Assembly: GCF_014058425.1 (NCBI RefSeq)
Contig: NZ_CP049366.1
Coordinates: 1,860,001 to 1,924,000, forward strand
DNA length: 64,000 bases
Direction of reading: 5' to 3'
From: Companilactobacillus pabuli
GTDB lineage: Bacteria > Bacillota > Bacilli > Lactobacillales > Lactobacillaceae
The position numbers and the translations under genes were made by a program. This document shows, in pieces, positions 1-61,132 of this stretch (positions are counted from its first letter, which is position 1; every line of letters begins with the position of its first letter). The notes beneath the pieces are model-generated. The model searched no databases. It saw only the letters and a program-made list of their open reading frames with translations, and was not told where the DNA came from.

Positions 1-1467
1 ATGATCACCATACCAAACAACTGTAATCGGCTTTTGTATAGCATCTAACTTGTCCAAAAATTCCTTAGTCGAATTATCGGTATAATTAATTCCTTTAGCA
101 TAATTAGCAACTTGTTGTGGAATACCCGCTGCTGAACCCTTATAAGTAAATTGATTATTATCATACGTTACATTGAATGGCATATGATTTTGCATCGTCA
201 CTAAACTGATGAATTGACCCTTTTTTCTGGCATTAACTTGTTTCAAAGTTTCTTTATAGGAAGACTCATCGTCGACAAAGGTACTGTAGCTGAGTTTAGA
301 TTTGTATTCTAAAGCATCCTTGCCTTTAGTTTGAAAATTCTTGAATTTATTAAAGCCTAATTTGGGATAGACAATATCACGGTCATAAAAATTAACATAA
401 TATGGATGAATAGCCGCTGCATAATCAAAACTATTAATAATATTAATAGGATGATCTTGATTAACTACCAATTGTGTATATGGCGACTGCAATGATTTAG
501 CAAATTGATTATAAGCTAGACCAGTAAAAGCCATGTATTCCATATTGGCTGTTCCGCCACCATAACCAGAACTTAACATCAATCCTGAGGTATTTTCTTG
601 CTTTATTTGATTGATATTAGGAATAGGATCTTGATTAATCGTAACGTTTGGAACTCGTACTGGATCAGCAAAGCTTTCACTCAAAACAAAAATCAACGTC
701 TGCTTATTCAAATTTTGATTAGGACGGTTTTGATTGATTTGTTGAGCCTTTTTTTGATACTTATGTAAGATATTTTGCATCGTTTCCTTGTTGTAATCTT
801 GTGGCTTATCCATAATATCCGTATGAATATTACCCAAAAATGGCAATAAGGGCCCTGTGGTATTGGCTATTAAACTAATATTAGGTGCGAAGTTGATATA
901 ACCCGTTCTGGCAGTGACTTTATTCATAAAGGAGCCCTCTTTGTCAACGTTATAAAACGACCCGATAGTGGCGACTCCCAGGACAACCAAAATAATTCTT
1001 GTAATTAGATTAAAGTGCAAAGTTTTTTTCGAGAAATGTTTGCCCAAAAAGACACAAAATCCTATCACAATTACAAAACTTAAGATGGCTAAAATAACTA
1101 TTTTCCAACTGATCATCGAAAATAGCTGTTTCCAGCTTCTTAAAAGCGCTAAATCACTAGGCATAATTGGTTCGTTTCGATAAGCCACTTTTAAGCGATT
1201 GGCCACAATGTAAATGCCAAAGAAAATATAATAAATGGCCGTTGCATAGAAGAAGCGATTAATCAAACCATAAACTGCTAGATATAATATGAACAGAATC
1301 GTTATTGTTAACAGATAAGCTGCTACATTAGTATGAAAAACAGCTTGGTTGGTAGCTTTAAAATCAACTGTTTGTGAAAGATGAAGTAGATAACCAACTA
1401 ATGCGGCGGAAAACAACATGAATAAAAATTGTAACAAGTAAATAAAAAAAGATTTTTTAATATGCAT
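1..1467 (-). CDS. LtaS-like membrane phosphoglycerol transferase (sulfatase fold), 3' end cut by window edge
   Basis: The reading frame is open from an ATG at 1467 to the window edge, so the C-terminus is missing. The N-terminus shows about five hydrophobic segments, followed by an extracellular sulfatase/alkaline-phosphatase-fold domain with LSESFADP (metal site), GYGGGTANMEY (the Thr is the expected nucleophile of LtaS-type enzymes), MQNHMPF and WYGDH. Such enzymes move glycerol-phosphate or similar groups onto cell-envelope polymers. It is a close paralogue of the next upstream gene, colinear over its whole visible length, so a tandem duplication is likely. AAAGGG lies 9 nt before the ATG. 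A terminator separates it from its paralogue, so it probably has its own promoter. The exact substrate cannot be told; LTA primase, LTA synthase or another glycopolymer transferase are all possible. Confidence 0.85.
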   Translation of the reverse strand, partial: MHIKKSFFIYLLQFLFMLFSAALVGYLLHLSQTVDFKATNQAVFHTNVAAYLLTITILFILYLAVYGLINRFFYATAIYYIFFGIYIVANRLKVAYRNEPIMPSDLALLRSWKQLFSMISWKIVILAILSFVIVIGFCVFLGKHFSKKTLHFNLITRIILVVLGVATIGSFYNVDKEGSFMNKVTARTGYINFAPNISLIANTTGPLLPFLGNIHTDIMDKPQDYNKETMQNILHKYQKKAQQINQNRPNQNLNKQTLIFVLSESFADPVRVPNVTINQDPIPNINQIKQENTSGLMLSSGYGGGTANMEYMAFTGLAYNQFAKSLQSPYTQLVVNQDHPINIINSFDYAAAIHPYYVNFYDRDIVYPKLGFNKFKNFQTKGKDALEYKSKLSYSTFVDDESSYKETLKQVNARKKGQFISLVTMQNHMPFNVTYDNNQFTYKGSAAGIPQQVANYAKGINYTDNSTKEFLDKLDAIQKPITVVWYGDH

Positions 1468-51645: not shown

Positions 51646-52806
51646 TTAAGCTTGGTAACGTGAAACACCATCAAGGTATGTTTCTGATAAGCTCATATCA
51701 TCGTTCAAAACGATAAAGTCAGCATCACGGCCGTCAGCGATGATACCACATTTATCAAGAACTTTTGAACTCTTAGCTGCTGTGTAACTAGCCATTTCGA
51801 TAGCTTCTTCATCTGTAGCAATGTTCCAGTCAACAACATTCTTGATAGCTTCATTTAGCATAAGGATTGAACCAGCTAAACTATGTGGTTCTGCCTTTAA
51901 TCTAGCAGTTCCGTTAGCAACAACAACAGGTAGTTCACCTAGTACGTAGTCACCATCTGGCATCAAACCTGCACGCATACAATCAGTGATCAAAGCAACG
52001 TGTTCGGCACCCTTCTTTTCGATTACGATTCTTGCGGCATAAGGATTTACGTGGTGTCCGTCACAAATTAATTCATCATCTACTAAGTGCATTGAAAGAG
52101 CTGCACCAACCATACCAGGAACTCTGTGGTTCAAGCCACTCATACCATTATATGTGTGTGTAAATCCAGTAGCACCGGCTTCAACACAGGCTTTAGCTTG
52201 TTCAAATGTAGCATCACTGTGACCTAAGTAAACGGCAACGTTGTCAGAAGCAACAGCTTTTGTAAATTCTGCGGCACCTTTTCTTTCAGGAGCGATTGAA
52301 ATCTTCTTAATCATGCCTTGAGCAGCATCTTGCCAGTCATTAAATTCGTCAACGTCTGGATCTCTGAAGTATTTAGGATTTTGAGCACCCTTGTGTTTTT
52401 CTGTATAGAAAGGTCCTTCAAAGTGGATTCCTTGAACTTTAGCACCAGTGATCTTCTTGTAATTATCACCAATTGTGTGGCAAATACTCAAAAGTTGGTC
52501 GTGTGAAGCTGTCAAAGTTGTTGGCAACCATGAAGTAACACCAGCTTTTAGTAGACCTTCTGACATTTCGTTCAACTTGTCAAAATCATCATCCATAACA
52601 TCATGACCTACAAGACCATGAATGTGAGTATCTACAAGTCCAGGAGCGATAAATTTGTCTGAATAATCAACAATTTTACCTTCTGGTTTGTTACCATCGG
52701 CTGGAATAAATTTACCAAATTTACCATCGTCAGTAACTTCTAGATAACCCCCATTTTCAGTTGTGTTCTTTAAAAAGAATTTCTTAGCATGAATATAATA
52801 TGACAT
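51646..52806 (-). CDS. nagA: N-acetylglucosamine-6-phosphate deacetylase, copy 1
   Basis: 386 aa. Amidohydrolase fold: metal/His motifs VDTHIHGLVGHDV, EGPF, YLGHSDATF, HTYNGMSGLNHR and DGHHVNPYA; catalytic Asp in LITDCMRAGLMPDGDY. Deacetylates GlcNAc-6-P (or GalNAc-6-P). Clear tandem paralogue of copy 2. A NagR-type operator (52849) lies upstream. Monocistronic between terminators. Confidence 0.92.
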   Translation of the reverse strand: MSYYIHAKKFFLKNTTENGGYLEVTDDGKFGKFIPADGNKPEGKIVDYSDKFIAPGLVDTHIHGLVGHDVMDDDFDKLNEMSEGLLKAGVTSWLPTTLTASHDQLLSICHTIGDNYKKITGAKVQGIHFEGPFYTEKHKGAQNPKYFRDPDVDEFNDWQDAAQGMIKKISIAPERKGAAEFTKAVASDNVAVYLGHSDATFEQAKACVEAGATGFTHTYNGMSGLNHRVPGMVGAALSMHLVDDELICDGHHVNPYAARIVIEKKGAEHVALITDCMRAGLMPDGDYVLGELPVVVANGTARLKAEPHSLAGSILMLNEAIKNVVDWNIATDEEAIEMASYTAAKSSKVLDKCGIIADGRDADFIVLNDDMSLSETYLDGVSRYQA

Positions 52807-52848
52807 CGTTTTTCCTCCTTAATTTACTCCATAATTATAACACTCTAT

Positions 52849-52862
52849 TTGGTCTATACCTT
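52849..52862. promoter_or_regulatory. GntR/NagR-type operator, nagA copy 1
   Basis: TTGGTCTATACCTT: the core GGTCTATACC is the reverse complement of GGTATAGACC, the dre-type site of NagR/YvoA regulators. About 45 bp before the start codon. Confidence 0.75.
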
Positions 52863-52872
52863 GTATTCGACC

Positions 52873-52936
52873 CTAAAAAAAATCCCTTTTCGAAAGTTAT
52901 ATGAAAGGCTTTCACATATCAATCAATAAGGGATTA
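52873..52936 (-). terminator. Terminator after nagA copy 2
   Basis: Minus strand AATCCCTT and AAGGGATT as outer arms, with an inner ATATGTGAAAG/CTTTCATAT hairpin and T8. Confidence 0.8.
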
Positions 52937-52942
52937 CTGTAT

Positions 52943-54103
52943 CTATCTTTGGTAACGGCTTACTCCGTCCAAATATGTTTCGCTTAATTCCATGTCTTCA
53001 TCTAATACAATAAAGTCTGCATCACGGCCTTGTGCGATAATACCACATTTGTCATCAATATAAGTACTCTTAGCTGGTACATAACTACCCATTTTGACTG
53101 CTTGAGCTGGTGTTGCAATATCCCAATCAACAACGTTTTTAACGCCTTGTTTCAATTGCAAAATACTTCCGGCTAAATTGTGTGATTCGTCTTTAAGTCT
53201 AGCCGTACCGTTTTCAACGATAACTGGCAATTCACCTAAAACATAATCACCTTCTGGCATCAAACCGGCTCTCATACAATCTGTAATCAAAGCAACGTGG
53301 TCAGGTGTTTGAGCGTTAATCAACATCTTAACAGAGAACGGATGAACGTGGTGACCATCACAGATCAACTCATCATAAATTCCATCCAAGCCCATAGCTG
53401 CACCGGCAACTCCTGGTTCACGATGTGTGAAACCTCTCATACCATTAAAGGCATGTGTGAAGACGCTAGCTCCAGCTTCAACAGCTTTTTTAACTTGAGC
53501 AAAAGTTGCATTCGTGTGACCAATAGCAACTGCTACATCGTTAGCTGTAACTTCTTTAATAAAATCAAGTGCACCATCACGTTCGGCAGCAATCGAGATC
53601 TTCTTGATGATTCCATGAGCAGCTTCTTGCCAATCATCGAATTCTTCAACACTTGGATCTCTAAAGTACTTAGGATTTTGAGCACCTTTATGTTCTTCTG
53701 TATAAAATGGGCCTTCAAGATGAATACCTTGAATCTTAGCACCAGTAGCTTTTTGGTAATTGTCACCAATTGTTTTACATACGTTTAAGAACTCTTCGTG
53801 TGAAGCTGTCAATGTTGTTGGCAACCATGAAGTAACACCTGTCTTAAGTAAACCTTCTGACATTTCGTTGATACCTTCAAAGTCATTATCCATAACATCA
53901 TGACCGCAAGTTCCATGAATATGTGTGTCGACTAGACCTGGGGCGATGAATTTATCTGAGTAATCGACAACTTTGCCTGCTGGCTTTCCATCTTCTTCAG
54001 TGAAGTATTTACCAAACTTACCGTCGTCAGTGATTTCTAGATAACCACCGTGTTCAGTAGTATTGTGTAAAAAGAATTTCTTAGCATGAATATAGTACGT
54101 CAT
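52943..54103 (-). CDS. nagA: N-acetylglucosamine-6-phosphate deacetylase, copy 2
   Basis: 386 aa from the ATG at 54103 behind GGAGGAG; a longer frame to 54175 crosses the operator. Motifs as in copy 1: VDTHIHGTCGHDV, EGPF, IGHTNATF, HAFNGMRGFTHR, DGHHVHPFS, LITDCMRAGLMPEGDY. The two copies probably serve different hexosamine phosphates (GlcNAc versus GalNAc), or reflect dosage; this one lies next to agaS and the glycan PTS operon, with its own operator at 54148. Confidence 0.92.
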   Translation of the reverse strand: MTYYIHAKKFFLHNTTEHGGYLEITDDGKFGKYFTEEDGKPAGKVVDYSDKFIAPGLVDTHIHGTCGHDVMDNDFEGINEMSEGLLKTGVTSWLPTTLTASHEEFLNVCKTIGDNYQKATGAKIQGIHLEGPFYTEEHKGAQNPKYFRDPSVEEFDDWQEAAHGIIKKISIAAERDGALDFIKEVTANDVAVAIGHTNATFAQVKKAVEAGASVFTHAFNGMRGFTHREPGVAGAAMGLDGIYDELICDGHHVHPFSVKMLINAQTPDHVALITDCMRAGLMPEGDYVLGELPVIVENGTARLKDESHNLAGSILQLKQGVKNVVDWDIATPAQAVKMGSYVPAKSTYIDDKCGIIAQGRDADFIVLDEDMELSETYLDGVSRYQR

Positions 54104-54215: not shown

Positions 54216-55388
54216 TTATTCGTAATCGTGAATCGTTACACCTTTAACAACACGGTTAACAGTACCACTAGCTGATGGTGTATCAGGAGTGTTATTAACC
54301 TTGATTGAGTTCATCAATGCAAATGTTTGAGCAAATACTACGTCAGGCAATGCTTGATAAAGTTCTGGAAGATCCTTGTCTCCAGCTTCAATAAAGAAGT
54401 TGTCGCCCGAGAAGTCGTTGTCATCAGAAGTACCAACACCAACAACCTTTTCGCAGATTTCATCACCTTTGATTTCTTCCAAAATATCAACATCGTATTG
54501 GCGAGTGTATTTATCATTGCTTAAGAAATCAAAGACAATTGTTTTACCGTTAACATATGATTTTGGACCATGACGGAATCCCATTGATGAATCAAAGATT
54601 GTTGTCAAAGCACCAGCGGTTAGTTCAAGAACCTTCAATTGGGCTTCACGAGTAAGTCCTGAAAGTGAACCACTACCAAGGTAAGTAATACGATCATAGT
54701 CTAAGTCAGCATAGGCTTGAATTTCATCTTCACGGCTGATGACTTCTTGACCCATCTTAACCATCGCATCAACCCATGAAGATTTCTTGTCTTCAGCATT
54801 TGTATCAAAAATCAATGCGGCCGTTAGAGTCATACAAGAGAAGCTTCCGGTCATGGCAAATCCCTTATCATTTGAAAGTGCTGGTTGAAGAAGCAAAAGG
54901 TTAGCGTCTTCAGTTTCAGCTTTCTTTGCTAAATGTCCTTCAGGGGCACAAGTGATAGTGATTTGATACAAATTCTTAATGAGTTTTTCGGCTAATTCAA
55001 CTGTAGCAACACTTTCTGGTGAGTTACCACTTCTAGCAAATGATACTAAGATAGTTGGATCTTCACTTCTTAGATTGTCTAAAGGAGCAGATACAATATC
55101 AGTTGTGGGAATGCTTTCAAAGACAAAACGTGATGTATCGCCAACACGATTCAAATATGGTCTTAAGGTATCACCTACATAAGCTGAAGTACCAGCACCA
55201 GTGAAGATAACTCTAATTTTTTGATCCGCAAACTTGTCTGTGATTTGCTTTAAAAAGCTATCTATTTCTGATTTTTTATTAGTGTAGTTTTGGAAAGCCT
55301 CTTTCCATAAGTCTGGTTGTTGTTGAATTTCACGGGTTGTAATTTTAGCACCCATTTTTTCTAGTTCTTGATCTGTTTTAGTAAACAT
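54216..55388 (-). CDS. agaS: SIS-domain sugar isomerase/deaminase (AgaS type)
   Basis: 390 aa with two SIS domains (about 35-185 and 210-370); FTGAGTSAYVGDTLRPYL and LVSFARSGNSPESVATV bind sugar phosphate, and GFRHGPKSYVNG recalls AgaS. AgaS converts galactosamine-6-phosphate to tagatose-6-phosphate plus ammonia. Located 27 bp after the unassigned enzyme, last gene of the PTS operon; consistent with galacto-N-biose or GalNAc catabolism. Confidence 0.88.
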   Translation of the reverse strand: MFTKTDQELEKMGAKITTREIQQQPDLWKEAFQNYTNKKSEIDSFLKQITDKFADQKIRVIFTGAGTSAYVGDTLRPYLNRVGDTSRFVFESIPTTDIVSAPLDNLRSEDPTILVSFARSGNSPESVATVELAEKLIKNLYQITITCAPEGHLAKKAETEDANLLLLQPALSNDKGFAMTGSFSCMTLTAALIFDTNAEDKKSSWVDAMVKMGQEVISREDEIQAYADLDYDRITYLGSGSLSGLTREAQLKVLELTAGALTTIFDSSMGFRHGPKSYVNGKTIVFDFLSNDKYTRQYDVDILEEIKGDEICEKVVGVGTSDDNDFSGDNFFIEAGDKDLPELYQALPDVVFAQTFALMNSIKVNNTPDTPSASGTVNRVVKGVTIHDYE

Positions 55389-55415: not shown

Positions 55416-57431
55416 TTAGTCTAAGAATTGAATGTGAACAACTGCTAATTCTTTAACAGTGAAGTCGACGTGATAGATTCCCTTTTTATCCAAAGTGACA
55501 TCTAAAACTTCATTTTGCATTTGATTGTTTTCATCACGATATGTAATAGAAACTTGCTTGACACTGCGGTCTTTCAAGAAGAAATTAATTCCATCAACAT
55601 TATCGATTGACCAATTGCTGACAATCATTTGAGTCTGTGCCTCATCGATAACCATCTTGCAATTGTACATGTTGACTAAGTGTGGAACGCTTAACTGTTC
55701 TTCAAAGAAATGCTTTATATCACCCTCACGAATATCGGTATATTGCGCTTGCCAACCGTATTTTGGAGAGTCGGTCATTGGGAGGATATAAAATTTGTCA
55801 TCGCTGACAGTTACTGGACCTAAATTGTTCTCAAAGCGATCGTAAGCATGTGAATGTACTTTAACTTGAGATTGGTATTGGATTCTTACGTAATCGCCAG
55901 TGTGAGTTAACATAGTAATTCTTGGATCACTGATTCCTGAAATTGTTGTATCGTCAAATTGTTCAAAGGATTGTTGTCCTGAACGATTCTTAAGTACTTC
56001 AATACTTGTTGCATTGATCAAATTCAATAAATGACGATTGTTTAATATAACGACTGCATCCCCATCCAAAAGGACAAAGTTACGCGTTAATAACTGAGTA
56101 ATTTGTTCATCGCTCAAGGTATTCAAGAAGTTTCCTGTAACAGCGACACATTTATTTTTGATTTCCTGATCAATATAATTTAATGGTTTCGTTGCAATTC
56201 CCATTGTGGAAAGAAGTTCTAACCATTGTGTTTGTGATGCTACTAACCCTTCTAGAGTGCCTTCTTCGTCAATTTTTGTTTTTACAACGTCTTGGTTCAT
56301 CGGTACGATAACGCCGCCACGTTGTTCAATATCGACGCCATGACTGTATAAGAAATCTAAGAATTCTTTATCATCGTCTAATAAGGCGTCATAACGGTAA
56401 GTCGGATTGATCCCGTCCCCCATCATACTGAACATGTTAAGCAAAACGCCGTCAGCATGAACTAAACTCGTTGTATCTAATTGAAATTGAGTAAATTTAT
56501 TTGACTTAGCATAAGGTGAATACAAGAAACTTTCCATTTCTGGATAAATCTTATGTCTGTCGCCAACTTCCGTTCTCGTTGCAACTGTATATTTTTCAAA
56601 ATCTCTAGCATATTGCTGTGGACTTACTTCGTTGTAAGCGGGCAAATGTGGTCTGGAAACAGCTGGTGTATCTTCACCACTCATTAAGTCCAAGAGTTTT
56701 TGCCAGTCACGTCCCTCAAGAGCATGTACCTCTGGCCAAGAACTCATTAGTCCTAACGTTGTGGTTGGTGAAACAGCATGAACTTTTTGTTCAATCATGT
56801 GAGCTACATGAAAAATTTCTTTTCGAGCAACTTGTAAATAAGCATCACGGTAAATATTCTCGCCACCAGTGAACATTTTGTGGACGAATTCCTCACGAGA
56901 CAGGTCAGTTTGTAAGATGTCGTTGTACTGCTTCATATGATCATCGCAGAAACAACCTAATTTGAAGGGTGCGTTCTTGTAATGTCTGAAGTCATCTTCC
57001 AGCCATAGTTCATGTGGGTGAATACTTGCCCAGATAGCATAGATATCACTGATATAATCAGCCCAACCACTATATCCAGGACAAGCCATAGATAAACTAG
57101 TAACGCCTTGATAATTAACCATTGGCTTGATATCAAGCTCAGGTTTAATGGAAATTCCTCGATCAGAATGATTCATCGTAGTCCACGGATTCAAACTGAT
57201 TGTCACGCCTAATTCTTTAAGCGACTGACTTATTTCATCAACATTTTTAATTAATTCTTTGGCTTTATCTAAAGTAATATGAGTATCTGACAATTCTTCT
57301 TGATTTAGGAAAAAGGCAACATCTGAAATATGAGCTTTTTTGACAAAATCAATCAATCTCTGTTTTTTTTCAGCAGTATAAACATTCTTGTCAACAGCGA
57401 GTCTTAATGTATAGCGATAAGAATTATTCAT
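55416..57431 (-). CDS. Unassigned large cytoplasmic enzyme, TIM-barrel glycosidase-like
   Basis: 671 aa, no signal peptide. Start at the ATG at 57431, which overlaps the end of the IIA gene; the GAG-GAC codons of that gene supply a GAGGA ribosome site. Residues 1-390 look like a TIM barrel (YTLRLAVDKN, SLNPWTTMNHS, HELWLEDDFRHY, IYPEMESFLYSP); the Glu in WLED and the Glu in YPEMES are candidate catalytic acids. A Rossmann-like middle (410-520) and beta-rich C-terminus follow, an architecture reminiscent of GH42. It sits where gnb-type clusters carry a GH35 phospho-beta-galactosidase, but no GH35 motif is present. Confidence 0.65.
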   Translation of the reverse strand: MNNSYRYTLRLAVDKNVYTAEKKQRLIDFVKKAHISDVAFFLNQEELSDTHITLDKAKELIKNVDEISQSLKELGVTISLNPWTTMNHSDRGISIKPELDIKPMVNYQGVTSLSMACPGYSGWADYISDIYAIWASIHPHELWLEDDFRHYKNAPFKLGCFCDDHMKQYNDILQTDLSREEFVHKMFTGGENIYRDAYLQVARKEIFHVAHMIEQKVHAVSPTTTLGLMSSWPEVHALEGRDWQKLLDLMSGEDTPAVSRPHLPAYNEVSPQQYARDFEKYTVATRTEVGDRHKIYPEMESFLYSPYAKSNKFTQFQLDTTSLVHADGVLLNMFSMMGDGINPTYRYDALLDDDKEFLDFLYSHGVDIEQRGGVIVPMNQDVVKTKIDEEGTLEGLVASQTQWLELLSTMGIATKPLNYIDQEIKNKCVAVTGNFLNTLSDEQITQLLTRNFVLLDGDAVVILNNRHLLNLINATSIEVLKNRSGQQSFEQFDDTTISGISDPRITMLTHTGDYVRIQYQSQVKVHSHAYDRFENNLGPVTVSDDKFYILPMTDSPKYGWQAQYTDIREGDIKHFFEEQLSVPHLVNMYNCKMVIDEAQTQMIVSNWSIDNVDGINFFLKDRSVKQVSITYRDENNQMQNEVLDVTLDKKGIYHVDFTVKELAVVHIQFLD

Positions 57432-57846
57432 CCTCATCGTCCTCATCAGATTCGGCATTGATAAAGGCGTTAACATCGACGATTCCGTCTTTGCCTTCCT
57501 TCATAATGTCGCTAACTTTAATGTCTTGTCCGATAAACTTTTGATTAGCATAGTTAATGACCATTGGTAGATTCAAACCAGACATAACGTGCATTTCAGG
57601 ATAATCTTGAGTCAAGTTGACAGCGACGTTACCAGGAGTTCCTCCAAGTAGGTCAACAATCAAGAAGACTGGTTCCTTGCCATAATACTTTTTGATCTCA
57701 GTTTCTACCTTAGCTTTTAGAGTTTCAGGACCATCTGATTTTTGTAGTCCCAAAGCTACTGTTTCTGGTAGTTCGCCGATAATTAATTCTGCTGATTTTA
57801 AAGTTTCAATTGCCATGTTTCCATGACTCATCAAGATTAATGCCAT
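57424..57846 (-). CDS. PTS EIIA, mannose family (AgaF-type)
   Basis: 140 aa. Phosphohistidine in LMSHGNMA (His8) and VDLLGGTPGNVAVNL are diagnostic of the mannose-class IIA domain. C-terminus ends with an acidic run (ESDEDDEDE) whose codons form the ribosome site of the next gene. Accepts phosphate from HPr. Fourth gene of the operon gntR-IIB-IIC-IID-IIA. Confidence 0.93.
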   Translation of the reverse strand: MALILMSHGNMAIETLKSAELIIGELPETVALGLQKSDGPETLKAKVETEIKKYYGKEPVFLIVDLLGGTPGNVAVNLTQDYPEMHVMSGLNLPMVINYANQKFIGQDIKVSDIMKEGKDGIVDVNAFINAESDEDDEDE

Positions 57847-57859
57847 AATTTAAATCCTC

Positions 57860-58678
57860 CTAGATTTTACCAAGTACGCCGATTGCTGAAAGAATAATAG
57901 CTAAAACAATAACAATAAAGATAACCTTTGTAGAAGTCATACCTTTCTTACCTAATAACCAGTATACGAATCCTACAACTAAGGCTGGAACTAACTTAGG
58001 AATAATCATATCAATATTATTTTGAACATTTAATGAAACCTTACCCAAGTGAGCAACTAGTGGAACTTGAATATTGATCATACTTGCAATCAAAGCACCA
58101 ACAACAAAAACACCAAGTAATGTAGCAGCATCTGTTAGAGCATTTAATTGACCTTGCATTTCTGAAACAAGTTTTGTACCTGCTTTATATGCAAAATGAA
58201 GTTGTTTCCAACGGAACACACAGATTGCGATGTTAACTGCTAACCATAGGAATAAACCAATAGGATTACCTTGAGCAGCCATTGTAGCAGCAATAGCACC
58301 CATGATAGTTGGAACCAAAGCGGCAAAAAGTGAATCACCAATAGCAGCGAATGGTCCCATAAGACCTGTCTTAATACCGGCAACGGTGTCTAGTGAATCA
58401 ACACCTTCTTTACCTTCAACAGCTAAATCAATACCAGTAATAATTGTGTTAAAGAAATTACTTGTATTAAAGAATTGGTTATGAGTCTTCATAGCTTCTT
58501 TTAGTTCTGGAGTACCATCACCATAGATTTTTCTTAGTTGTGGCAAAATTGTATATAAATAACCTGAAGCTTGCATTCTTTCATAATTCCAACCCATTTG
58601 GAATCCAAACAAACTACGTCTGTTGATTTGGTTGAAATCTTTTTTTGTTAATTTATATTCTTCGTTATTCTTCTTCAT
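57860..58678 (-). CDS. PTS EIID, mannose family
   Basis: 272 aa from ATG 58678; GGGGAGG inside the IIC tail lies 9 nt before it, and a GTG one codon earlier is the alternative. Typical IID: RRSLFGFQMGWNYERMQASG, FFNTSNFFNTIITG, GPFAAIGDSLFAALVPTI, and four hydrophobic helices in the C-terminal half. Overlaps IIC by 14 nt. Forms the membrane channel with IIC. Confidence 0.93.
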   Translation of the reverse strand: MKKNNEEYKLTKKDFNQINRRSLFGFQMGWNYERMQASGYLYTILPQLRKIYGDGTPELKEAMKTHNQFFNTSNFFNTIITGIDLAVEGKEGVDSLDTVAGIKTGLMGPFAAIGDSLFAALVPTIMGAIAATMAAQGNPIGLFLWLAVNIAICVFRWKQLHFAYKAGTKLVSEMQGQLNALTDAATLLGVFVVGALIASMINIQVPLVAHLGKVSLNVQNNIDMIIPKLVPALVVGFVYWLLGKKGMTSTKVIFIVIVLAIILSAIGVLGKI

Positions 58679-59597
58679 CACCAGTTACCTCCCCGTTAGC
58701 ATCTTCGATTTCGTCTTCTTCATCTTCATCGTCAGTTGAAGAATTCTTAGTACCTGCAGCTGGAGCTGAATTTAATTTAGCCATTGATTTCTTATATTCA
58801 AGAATAGCAAGGGCACCACCGATTAAAGCAATAGCCAACATTGGTAAAGAATTGAATGTTGTTGTAAATGCCTTACTTGCAGCACCAAGACCTGTACCAA
58901 GTGTTTGAATACTTGTAAATACTGTAGATAGTAGAGCTGTAATTGTGAAGCCTAAGATCAAGTAAGCAATGTGCTTCTTAACTGGTAAGTAGTGAAGCAA
59001 AATAGCAAAACCAACGGCTGGTAATGTAGCACCGGCTGTTTGTAGACCTGTGTTCAACCATTGTAGATCACCATTTAGATATGTAACCATTGTCTTAACA
59101 ACACCTTGACCTAGAGCCAAAGCTAGAAATACAGGAATACCACGTGATAAGCACCATGGCAAAGCACCCATGATTGTGTGTCTTTCAATACCCTTGTAGT
59201 TGAAGTTTTCAATATCTTTATCAACTTTGTGTTGGAAATAAGTATTAGCAAATCTTGCTAGGATATCAAATGATGTTAACAATGCGGCAACTGGAACACC
59301 AATAGCAGCAATGGCTGTAGTAGCTTTCATACCAGTACCGATTGAAAAGGCTGTAGCCAAAACAGTACCTGAATTAGCATCGATCTTTGAAGCACCACCG
59401 AAAGTACCAACACCAAGAACTGTTAATTGAAGAGCCGCACCAATAATTAGTCCGGTTTTCATATCGCCCATAATTAAACCAGAAACCATTCCGGCCCAAA
59501 CGGGTTGACTCAATGATGAGTTCATTTGCAATTCATCATAGATGTTGTACATAGAATATGCCGTTAAAAGCAATATTTGAACAATTGAAAATTCCAT
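58665..59597 (-). CDS. PTS EIIC, mannose family, with acidic tail
   Basis: 310 aa from ATG 59597 with GGGGGA upstream. About seven to eight helices; GLIMGDMKTGLIIGAALQLT is the IIC sugar-site signature. The last ~35 residues are strongly acidic (SSTDDEDEEDEIEDANGEV), unusual for IIC, and cover the ribosome site of IID. Substrate by context: a beta-linked amino disaccharide or amino sugar. Confidence 0.92.
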   Translation of the reverse strand: MEFSIVQILLLTAYSMYNIYDELQMNSSLSQPVWAGMVSGLIMGDMKTGLIIGAALQLTVLGVGTFGGASKIDANSGTVLATAFSIGTGMKATTAIAAIGVPVAALLTSFDILARFANTYFQHKVDKDIENFNYKGIERHTIMGALPWCLSRGIPVFLALALGQGVVKTMVTYLNGDLQWLNTGLQTAGATLPAVGFAILLHYLPVKKHIAYLILGFTITALLSTVFTSIQTLGTGLGAASKAFTTTFNSLPMLAIALIGGALAILEYKKSMAKLNSAPAAGTKNSSTDDEDEEDEIEDANGEVTGDEEE

Positions 59598-59619
59598 TGT
59601 TTTTTCCCCCAATTAATGA

Positions 59620-60108
59620 CTATTTTTTGTAATCTTTTAAGATACCTGCGAAGTCTTTGGCATCGTCATTTGGAACCATTTGAGCAGTAATCTTAACCCC
59701 TGCATCTAAAATTTTATGGAATGCATCGTAATCTTCGTCTGTTACATTGATTGATTGTGTTAAGTGTTGTGTATTGTCCTTTTGAGACATGTTACCAACA
59801 TTGATAGTGTCGAACTTAACGCCTTCTTCAATCATTTGGACTAATGTTTCAGGTTTCTTAACAACAAGGAACACTCTTTGTGATTCATACTTGCCGGCTA
59901 AGATATTTGCTGAAGATTTCTTTGTTCCTAAAATACTGAGGTTAACTCCGGCTGGTTTAGCTAATTTAAGGGCAGTTTTTTGAATGTCGTTCTTTATAAT
60001 ATCGTTATCAACTACCATGATTCTTGAAGCTTGTAATTTAGTTGTCCATAAATTAGCAACTTGTCCGTGAATTAATCTTTCATCGATTCTTACTGCAATA
60101 ATACCCAT
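59620..60108 (-). CDS. PTS EIIB, mannose family (AgaV type)
   Basis: 162 aa. Phosphohistidine in DERLIHGQVANLW (His near 14) and the region VGNMSQKDNTQHLTQSI are typical of mannose-class IIB. Transfers phosphate from IIA to the sugar. Follows the GntR regulator by 33 bp in the same operon. Confidence 0.93.
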   Translation of the reverse strand: MGIIAVRIDERLIHGQVANLWTTKLQASRIMVVDNDIIKNDIQKTALKLAKPAGVNLSILGTKKSSANILAGKYESQRVFLVVKKPETLVQMIEEGVKFDTINVGNMSQKDNTQHLTQSINVTDEDYDAFHKILDAGVKITAQMVPNDDAKDFAGILKDYKK

Positions 60109-60141: not shown

Positions 60142-60858
60142 TTAGGATTTGTTACTGATATCGTGTCTGATGTGATATGCAAATTGATCACTTCTTGCAA
60201 CACTCAAAGTAAACTCAATAATTTGATTGTGCGGATTATACGTTTGTCGTCTGAGATTCAAGCACGGTGTACCTTCTTTGATTTTCAAATATTTACTATC
60301 ATTTGCACTAGTAATGCCAGCTAGAAAATATTCATCAGCGTAGTACACTTGTTCATTAAATTCTTCTGCGAAAACTGAATACAATGAGCGATTGGATAAC
60401 ATCGATTCAGTCATTAAACTGAAGTGTTCAGCCGGTAAGTAAGTTCTTTCCAACATTACCGGAATCCCGTCGGCAAATCGAAGTCGCTTTAACTTAATGA
60501 TTTGACTGCCCACTTCAGTTTCCAAATTCTTAGCGAAGTATGCGTTGGCCTCCTTCCTCTCAAAACTAAGAATCTTGGTTTGTGGTTTTTTCCCCAGTGA
60601 AATCATTTGCTTATTGAAACTATAACTACTATTCAAATCACTATTCAGATCAACTCTATTAACAAAAGTGCCTTTACCATGAACTCGACGAATCATTCCA
60701 GTAACTTCTAATTCCATCAGAGCGGCTCTGACAGTTGTTCTAGATAATTCGTACTTTTCTGCTAATTCCCTTTCGGAAGGTAATTTGGCATTGGCTGGTA
60801 AAGTCTGAATGTAATTAGTCAGCAAGTTGATTAACTGTTCTTGAAGAGTAATTTTCAT
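60142..60858 (-). CDS. GntR/HutC family regulator (NagR/GnbR-like)
   Basis: 238 aa from ATG 60858 (AAAGGA about 11 nt upstream). N-terminal winged helix (LPSERELAEKYELSRTTVRAAL, in part) and a UTRA ligand-binding domain (about 90-230; IIKLKRLRFADGIPVMLERTYLP). NagR-like members bind GlcN6P or GlcNAc6P. First gene of the PTS operon; operator-like sites lie upstream and at both nagA genes, so it likely represses all of them. Confidence 0.9.
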   Translation of the reverse strand: MKITLQEQLINLLTNYIQTLPANAKLPSERELAEKYELSRTTVRAALMELEVTGMIRRVHGKGTFVNRVDLNSDLNSSYSFNKQMISLGKKPQTKILSFERKEANAYFAKNLETEVGSQIIKLKRLRFADGIPVMLERTYLPAEHFSLMTESMLSNRSLYSVFAEEFNEQVYYADEYFLAGITSANDSKYLKIKEGTPCLNLRRQTYNPHNQIIEFTLSVARSDQFAYHIRHDISNKS

Positions 60859-60926
60859 ACGAATCCAATCCTTTCTGGTATCAACCACAAGACCATTGTA
60901 TCCGGTTACATTTTATAAAACAATAA

Positions 60927-60940
60927 CTGGGATAGACCAG
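60927..60940. promoter_or_regulatory. Operator-like site upstream of the GntR-PTS operon
   Basis: CTGGGATAGACCAG: CTGG and CCAG arms around a GATAGA core that matches GGTATAGACC in 9 of 10 positions. About 70 bp before the regulator start. Confidence 0.65.
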
Positions 60941-61002
60941 TTTCAAGGTGGTTTATCTTGGAAAATCAGCGGTATCAATGGTTTTTGTGGTGAAAAAATA
61001 AA

Positions 61003-61062
61003 GTGGTACTTTTTTTGGTACCACTTACATAAGATACCACTGGTAAAACTGGTCTGACCAAT
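61003..61062. promoter_or_regulatory. Further inverted repeats upstream of the GntR-PTS operon
   Basis: GTGGTAC (61003) pairs with GTACCAC (61018) over a T-rich loop, and ACTGGTCTGACCAAT (61048-61062) is a second palindrome (TGGTC-T-GACCA). Together with 60927 they suggest cooperative regulator binding. The 345 bp gap to the RidA gene also holds that operon's terminator and otherwise shows no gene. Confidence 0.55.
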
Positions 61063-61132
61063 TTTTCATTTGTATATGCATTCTTTCATAATGTATTCAA
61101 TAACGACTGAATTAACTGTAATAACAGGAATA

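Follow-up and report, generated by a model that had tools for sequence, protein, structure and literature searches.

A predicted GH42-type-fold protein in the GH35 position of a PTS-agaS-nagA operon of Companilactobacillus pabuli, a candidate intracellular Gal-beta-HexNAc galactosidase

Background

According to a review, the GH35 enzyme GnbG, encoded in the gnb operon of Lacticaseibacillus casei, releases HexNAc and Gal-6P from its substrates (PMC10629584), and a second review credits it with low activity on unphosphorylated forms (PMC6109692). A mucin-pathway survey takes clustering with gnbG as the marker of galacto-N-biose (GNB)/lacto-N-biose (LNB) transport (PMC5583593). A similar operon is found in the window analysed here, namely, a stretch of 64,000 nucleotides of the Companilactobacillus pabuli contig NZ_CP049366.1, where the position expected for GH35 is taken by an unassigned gene, referred to below as X. 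What kind of protein is X, and what might it do in this operon? An earlier note, made from the sequence alone, had described X as a cytoplasmic 671-aa protein that lacks a GH35 motif, has a GH42-like layout with candidate acids in two short stretches, and stands in for the GH35 phospho-beta-galactosidase. We examined these points by family searches, structure prediction, and comparison of genomes.

Results

X is an intact gene of a gnb-type operon

X is a real open reading frame of 671 codons on the minus strand, running from an ATG at 57431 down to 55416, while the same coordinates on the plus strand contain many stops; the earlier note had left the strand unstated. With an alternative start at 57476, the protein would be 686 aa long. 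It lies within a gntR-PTS(IIB-IIC-IID-IIA)-X-agaS-nagA-nagA operon (Table 1), and the gene order is as the earlier note had read it, with nagA present in two copies. The ATG of X overlaps the stop codon of the IIA gene (ATGAATAA), an arrangement as in translational coupling. The N-terminus as read suggests that X is cytoplasmic.

Table 1. Features of X and its operon, in window positions
Feature	Position	Strand	Basis or remark
GntR/UTRA regulator	60142..60888	-	ORF list, Pfam, NCBIfam
PTS mannose-class EIIB	59620..60108	-	Pfam, NCBIfam
PTS mannose-class EIIC	58665..59612	-	best NCBIfam model AgaW, under its cut-off
PTS mannose-class EIID	57860..58681	-	Pfam, NCBIfam
PTS mannose-class EIIA	57424..57846	-	Pfam, NCBIfam; stop codon overlapping X start
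X, 671-aa protein with predicted GH42-type fold	55416..57431	-	ORF, Pfam/NCBIfam scans, relatives, predicted structure
X aa 1-364, (beta/alpha)8 barrel	56340..57431	-	predicted model
X barrel strands 6-12, 37-42, 77-82, 141-144, 225-230, 258-262, 298-300, 328-332			DSSP, strands assigned by eye
C117, candidate metal ligand	57081..57083	-	invariant 39/39; aligned by hhalign with GH42 Cys
E145-D146-D147 after strand 4, candidate acid/base, D147 favoured	56991..56999	-	model, conservation
C160-F-C162-x-x-H165, counterpart of GH42 C-x-C-x-x-C	56937..56954	-	invariant
E298-M-E300 on strand 7, candidate nucleophile, E300 favoured	56532..56540	-	model, conservation
X aa 365-480, alpha/beta domain	55992..56339	-	model; inferred boundary
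X aa 481-671, mainly beta C-terminal region	55419..55991	-	model; inferred boundary
AgaS-family galactosamine-6-phosphate isomerase/deaminase (SIS)	54216..55388	-	TIGR02815 E 3e-126, 421 bits vs cut-off 529
NagA-type N-acetylhexosamine-6-phosphate deacetylase, copy 1	52943..54097	-	TIGR00221 above cut-off
NagA-type deacetylase, copy 2	51646..52806	-	TIGR00221 above cut-off

The two neighbouring nagA-type genes (51646-54097) are followed by a glycerophosphodiesterase-like gene, as read by eye. Some X relatives likewise have two nagA copies nearby and others have one; the preferred substrate may be GalNAc-6P for one copy of the pair and GlcNAc-6P for its neighbor. Upstream of gntR, the minus strand of 60889-61100 contains several inverted repeats, namely, AAGTGGTACC...GTACCACTT, TGGTCAGACCA and CTGGTCTATCCCAG, and the blocks TGGTATCTT and AAAAAAGTACCACTTT are kept in all six Companilactobacillus sequences aligned. 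These repeats and blocks are perhaps regulator sites; two of the elements appeared as terminator-like in a terminator scan.

X matches no Pfam or NCBIfam family above cut-off and is at most a probable distant relative of GH42

No Pfam or NCBIfam family was found above its cut-off in X. When 18 members of the X family were scanned singly with E-values up to 10, no glycosidase family was among the matches, where the HMMER filters drop most matches with an E-value above about 0.1. In particular, the GH35 model PF01301 matched neither X, in which the earlier note had seen no GH35 motif, nor the 18 members, nor anything in the C. pabuli genome; the GH42 model PF02449 was likewise unmatched in X (E-values up to 1), in the 18 members and in the whole genome, and the GH112 model PF09508 in X and its 18 relatives. 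A DUF7390 match at residues 559-636, with an E-value of 0.0019 and 18.9 bits, was below the cut-off of 28.4 and recurred in 3 of the 18 members. Searches of PDB sequences gave no significant match with either X alone or a nine-sequence profile; thymidylate synthase and the other PDB sequence matches, all with an E-value of 0.1 or worse, were rejected as chance. Viral contigs contained no X relative, and a viral fold library returned only poor matches (TM to query 0.32 or less). We found no description of an X-type enzyme in the literature covered, which takes in few subscription papers.

In a profile-profile alignment by hhalign with the GH42 profile, X scored 36.8 over 556 collinear columns (P 0.0027), compared with 10.3-25.6 for 20 column-shuffled GH42 profiles, 14.9-17.7 for three reversed profiles, and 14.4-18.3 for six unrelated families. 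The probability assigned to this alignment is only 11%, so X cannot be placed near GH42 by sequence alone. With GH35 the score was 19.1, near the range of the unrelated families, and this result together with the lack of a model match rules out that X is a GH35 enzyme. With GH112, whose alignment consists of two sequences only, it was 28.2 over 265 columns at a probability of 2%. Since the GH42 profile reaches GH35 and GH112 with E-values of 3e-9 and 1e-8, respectively, compared with the P of 0.0027 for X, X would seem to be a remote relation of GH42, more distant than both of these accepted separate families.

The predicted structure of X follows the GH42 layout over the whole chain

An AlphaFold2 model of X, based on an alignment of 18 sequences, had a mean pLDDT of 88.2 and a pTM of 0.90. 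The best PDB match of this model by Foldseek was the GH42 beta-galactosidase 5e9a (E-value 4e-19), closely followed by GH164 and an Ignavibacterium beta-1,2-glucosyltransferase. VIA-align superposed 580 of the 671 residues on 5e9a with a Z-score of 22.5, an rmsd of 4.3 and 11% identity. The GH42, glucosyltransferase and GH164 structures cover the whole chain with Z-scores of about 19-22, whereas the matches of PgaB, Cwp19 and the beta-amylases, with similar values, span about 300-330 residues that belong mainly to the barrel. The barrel is thus of a common type, and the assignment to the GH42 type rests on whole-chain coverage. GH164, with a Z-score of about 20 at about 10% identity, was matched in structure but not significantly in the PDB sequence searches, and GH112 was not among the 50 fold-match rows listed for Foldseek and VIA-align.

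The predicted model contains the three-domain layout of GH42, namely, a TIM barrel, an alpha/beta trimerisation domain and a C-terminal beta domain, so that the fold search bears out the layout proposed in the earlier note. Residues 365-480 are taken as the counterpart of the trimerisation domain on the basis of this model.

Conserved acids and a Cys3-His motif mark a candidate active centre

For the analysis of conservation we aligned 39 members of the X family that differ by at least 10%, comprising 35 from Lactobacillaceae, two from other Bacillota, one from Subdoligranulum and one from Streptomyces. C117, D146, D147, C160, C162, H165, E298 and E300 are invariant in all 39, and E145 is Glu in 38 and Asp in one. 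The two acid-bearing stretches named in the earlier note, W143-L-E145-D146-D147 and Y296-P-E298-M-E300-S, are therefore present, and their acids are nearly fully conserved. In the predicted model, D146 and D147 follow barrel strand 4, and E298 and E300 are located on strand 7, the places at which retaining enzymes of clan GH-A have the acid/base and the nucleophile, respectively.

The Asn-Glu pair that follows strand 4 in GH42 corresponds to Asp-Asp in all 39 members, a pairing made by strand end rather than by superposition, and Asp would thus have to serve as the acid/base. As hhalign pairs the active-site columns only loosely, E145 with the GH42 Glu and P297 with the nucleophile, we paired D147 with the acid/base and E300 with the nucleophile by eye, from the location on the strands and the motif around each residue; these two would thus be the candidate counterparts of the GH42 catalytic residues. 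A Cys motif follows the strand-4 acids in X, as C-x-C-x-x-C does in GH42, with the last Cys replaced by His. This GH42 motif is a metal site; it was present in 9 of the 12 GH42 sequences compared and hence is not universal in GH42. R10, H88, R195, R241, R260 and K309 are further invariant basic residues of X. Beside the acids, position 150 holds His throughout the 35 Lactobacillaceae rows, and the other four have F, S, L and L there; H150 is a candidate subsite or phosphate residue.

X is scattered through Lactobacillaceae and occurs together with agaS

We found X in 48 of 397 Lactobacillaceae genomes, belonging to at least seven of 40 genera; this count includes G467 and G589, which have broken copies only. 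In Companilactobacillus itself, 13 of 26 genomes harbor X, that of C. pabuli included, and the 12 named X loci, all from this genus, match X at 63-98% identity. Both the 12 named loci and the 48 genomes represent a recurrence far above chance. Among 398 evenly drawn Bacillota genomes, matches were seen in C. pabuli and two others only, and a plasmid collection yielded three records, one from Subdoligranulum and two from Streptomyces. In the X tree, full support was obtained for the groups g1 (Companilactobacillus), g275 and g303 and no clear support for g270 and g277; the placement of the outgroup is unsure because of long branches.

An agaS match is present in every one of the 48 X-positive genomes, intact in 46 and broken in G424 and G467. 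Within a 196-genome subset, agaS was found in 37 genomes, namely, all 23 X-positive and 14 of the 173 X-negative ones (Fisher's test 1e-20, kinship ignored). We left out six of 43 genomes with only weak agaS matches (E-value above 1e-6); G467, G424 and G503, whose copies are broken, were counted as positive. In G467 (g303; C26 and C30), X and the agaS-like gene are both broken by stops, and thus appear to be in joint decay.

Among the 37 agaS-positive genomes, X without a strong GH35 match is found in 23 and a strong GH35 match without X in 10; four have neither, and none has both, as one would expect if X replaces GH35 in the manner the earlier note supposed. For this count, 22 of 57 genomes whose GH35 matches were weak or partial (E-value above 1e-40) were left out; the set left out includes the X-positive G654 and none of the 37. 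When all 397 genomes are considered, X is accompanied by a strong GH35 match in 5 of the 48 X-positive ones (G626, G660, G700, G722 and G732); in G700, G722 and G660 (L090-L092) the GH35 gene is not part of a PTS-agaS operon and X adjoins gal genes.

Gene neighborhoods place X with PTS, agaS and galactose genes

X lies between the IIA gene and agaS in Companilactobacillus and g276, and between IIA and IIB in g270. In L064 it follows IIA, in line with agaS, nagA, galK, galT and PTS genes; in L057, L058 and L063 it is convergent with PTS genes and flanked on the opposite side by a lacD-like gene; and in three g277 genomes (L055, L100 and L101) it is transcribed divergently from genes for a lacI-type regulator, galK, an unassigned 331-aa gene, presumably galE, and galT. 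Of the 12 GH35 neighborhoods read, four, all X-negative (L088, L089, L093 and L097), have GH35 inside a PTS-agaS-nagA operon, which agrees with the position that the earlier note had assigned to X; in L095 and L098, GH35 lies beside PTS genes without agaS. In L048 (9947-10612), a DUF4867 gene occurs close to the X operon, in the company of lacA, lacB and lacD-like genes.

X and agaS are within 10 kb of each other in 26 of the 48 genomes, and are farther apart or on different contigs in 22, comprising all three of g275, both of g293, eight of nine of g277, seven of 11 of g303 and two of nine of g270. No labelled PTS or galK/galT homologues were seen in the unlinked X neighborhoods that we read (e.g. 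L054, L059-L062, L065, L103 and L107).

Relatives from farther away have other company. The Subdoligranulum relative (L016, 3770-13550) is near genes of the sialic-acid-specific acetylesterase and DHDPS families, a BNR-repeat gene and an MFS transporter gene, surroundings that suggest host-glycan use, and another distant relative (L017) is beside an ABC sugar-binding protein. The most distant one (L067, 6020-11858) is near GH10-like, RraA-like, PfkB kinase and KDPG-type aldolase genes; thus, members of the wider X family need not be galactosidases and might act on other substrates.

We also looked for the genes that would handle the galactose moiety. A LacB-like match was found in 38 and a GalT-like match in 43 of the 48 X-positive genomes; both counts are rough, since the LacB query also draws related isomerases (the best match in G406 has 43% identity) and several GalT matches contain a stop. 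No genome lacks both, a weak result, because chance alone would give about one. Five LacB-negative genomes with X near agaS (G401, G407, G500, G738 and G789) suit a release of free galactose, while four GalT-negative ones (G573, G669, G756 and G776) suit Gal-6P or export, so that the absence of LacB from 10 and of GalT from five of the 48 points in opposite directions, to free galactose and to Gal-6P, respectively.

Discussion

Proposed role of X and its alternatives

We favor, with somewhat more confidence than doubt, the interpretation that X is the founder or a member of a glycoside hydrolase family with GH42-type architecture, unnamed in Pfam and NCBIfam and possibly with a CAZy number, and acts as an intracellular exo-beta-galactosidase on Gal-beta-HexNAc. 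The mannose-class PTS of the operon would import Gal-beta-HexNAc, most likely galacto-N-biose (Gal-beta-1,3-GalNAc) and perhaps as the 6-phosphate; X would release galactose (or Gal-6P) and GalNAc(-6P); and GalNAc-6P would be converted by NagA and then AgaS to tagatose-6P. Catalysis by X would probably be two-step and retaining, with D147 after strand 4 as the acid/base and E300 on strand 7 as the nucleophile. X would thereby fill the slot of GnbG, to which it is unrelated by detectable sequence, in a non-orthologous replacement. The contextual evidence for hydrolysis of Gal-beta-HexNAc is good. What the analysis shows directly is the operon, the predicted fold, the invariant residues and the way X co-occurs with agaS and excludes GH35; we infer the activity of X, its substrate, the phosphate, the linkage, the catalytic roles and the retaining mechanism. 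A more far-reaching proposal, which we put forward tentatively and which may well prove too strong, is that X represents the prototype of a new glycoside hydrolase family, characterized by a GH42-like fold, an Asp-Asp pair and a Cys3-His metal site, that arose independently for the intracellular cleavage of galacto-N-biose(-6-phosphate) and replaced GH35 in several Lactobacillaceae genera.

The operon context could also be read differently. X may be a cytoplasmic beta-galactosidase on unphosphorylated galactosides whose place in a PTS operon is only a regulatory convenience, given that it is divergent from gal genes or has no labelled PTS neighbors in some genomes, that the neighbors of distant relatives include an MFS gene (L016) and an ABC sugar-binding protein (L017), and that, according to a review, one mannose-class PTS of L. 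casei, that for fucosyl-GlcNAc, imports its substrate without phosphorylation (PMC6109692). We consider this fairly unlikely, as the agaS match in all 48 X-positive genomes, even where the two genes are unlinked, argues against it.

Two other alternatives concern the chemistry. The invariant DD pair after strand 4 and the adjoining nagA and agaS genes would suit a 6-phospho-beta-N-acetylhexosaminidase that cuts GalNAc-6P or GlcNAc-6P off the non-reducing end of a disaccharide with substrate assistance; D146-D147 would then parallel the DD/DE pair of GH84/GH20-type enzymes, with the first Asp orienting the acetamido group and the second serving as the acid. PgaB, a protein of polyglucosamine processing, is also among the best barrel-only matches (4p7l, VIA-align Z-score 21.9 over 324 residues). 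Such a mechanism, however, does not need the two invariant Glu of strand 7, X resembles GH42 in its architecture along the whole chain and in its Cys motif, and the galK/galT neighbors point to galactose, and thus we regard this activity as unlikely. GH112, the galacto-N-biose/lacto-N-biose phosphorylases, has the same substrate class as that expected for X and shares ancestry with GH42 (the E-value of 1e-8 above), and a related phosphorylase would yield Gal-1-phosphate and HexNAc(-6P). The many invariant basic residues of X and its GH112 score, higher than that of reversed GH112 (17.0) and of the best shuffled GH42 profile (25.6), are in line with this, but PF09508 is unmatched in X and its relatives, the two-sequence GH112 alignment spans less than half the columns of that with GH42, and galK beside X would be superfluous for Gal-1P; we therefore think a phosphorylase very improbable.

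The X family, found in at least seven genera of lactobacilli, has no name in Pfam or NCBIfam. If our favored interpretation as a Gal-beta-HexNAc galactosidase is true, predictions of galacto-N-biose use that take gnbG (GH35) as the marker will overlook 23 of the 37 agaS-positive Lactobacillaceae genomes, in which X is present instead. X and GH35 would be a further case of two glycosidases, sequence-unrelated as far as detectable, swapped at one operon position. A review cited above notes that GNB/LNB are used by L. gasseri and L. johnsonii even though these species lack gnb genes (PMC6109692); X could be the missing enzyme of such lactobacilli.

Comparison with known systems

GH165 was set aside for X by description only. 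It is cited as originating from an agricultural-soil screen (PMC5342196), whose three enzymes are described with layouts unlike that of X: one is a five-bladed propeller, another a dehydrogenase/HEAT/cytochrome protein, and the third combines 7TM with a diguanylate cyclase.

Compared with the GH42 beta-galactosidases (5e9a, 4oif, 3tts and 1kwg), the X model has the same three-domain fold over the whole chain, candidate acids after strands 4 and 7, and a C-x-C-x-x-C/H motif after strand 4, but X differs in its identity of 8-12% (VIA-align), in the lack of a PF02449 match, in Asp-Asp for Asn-Glu, and in His for the last Cys. GH112 is likewise distant kin of GH42, but differs by phosphorolysis, and its profile match to X is weaker and partial. 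The GH164 beta-mannosidase Bs164 provides a parallel, since, according to its description, it has three GH42-like domains, GH42 enzymes as its nearest solved structures, and catalytic residues at strands 4 and 7, and yet was given a family of its own, GH164 (PMC7105311). Unlike the proposed role of X, Bs164 is a beta-mannosidase, and its acid/base is Glu. Finally, X resembles GnbG of L. casei in its operon position with a mannose-class PTS, AgaS and NagA; although X is not a GH35 enzyme, the two probably do the same job.
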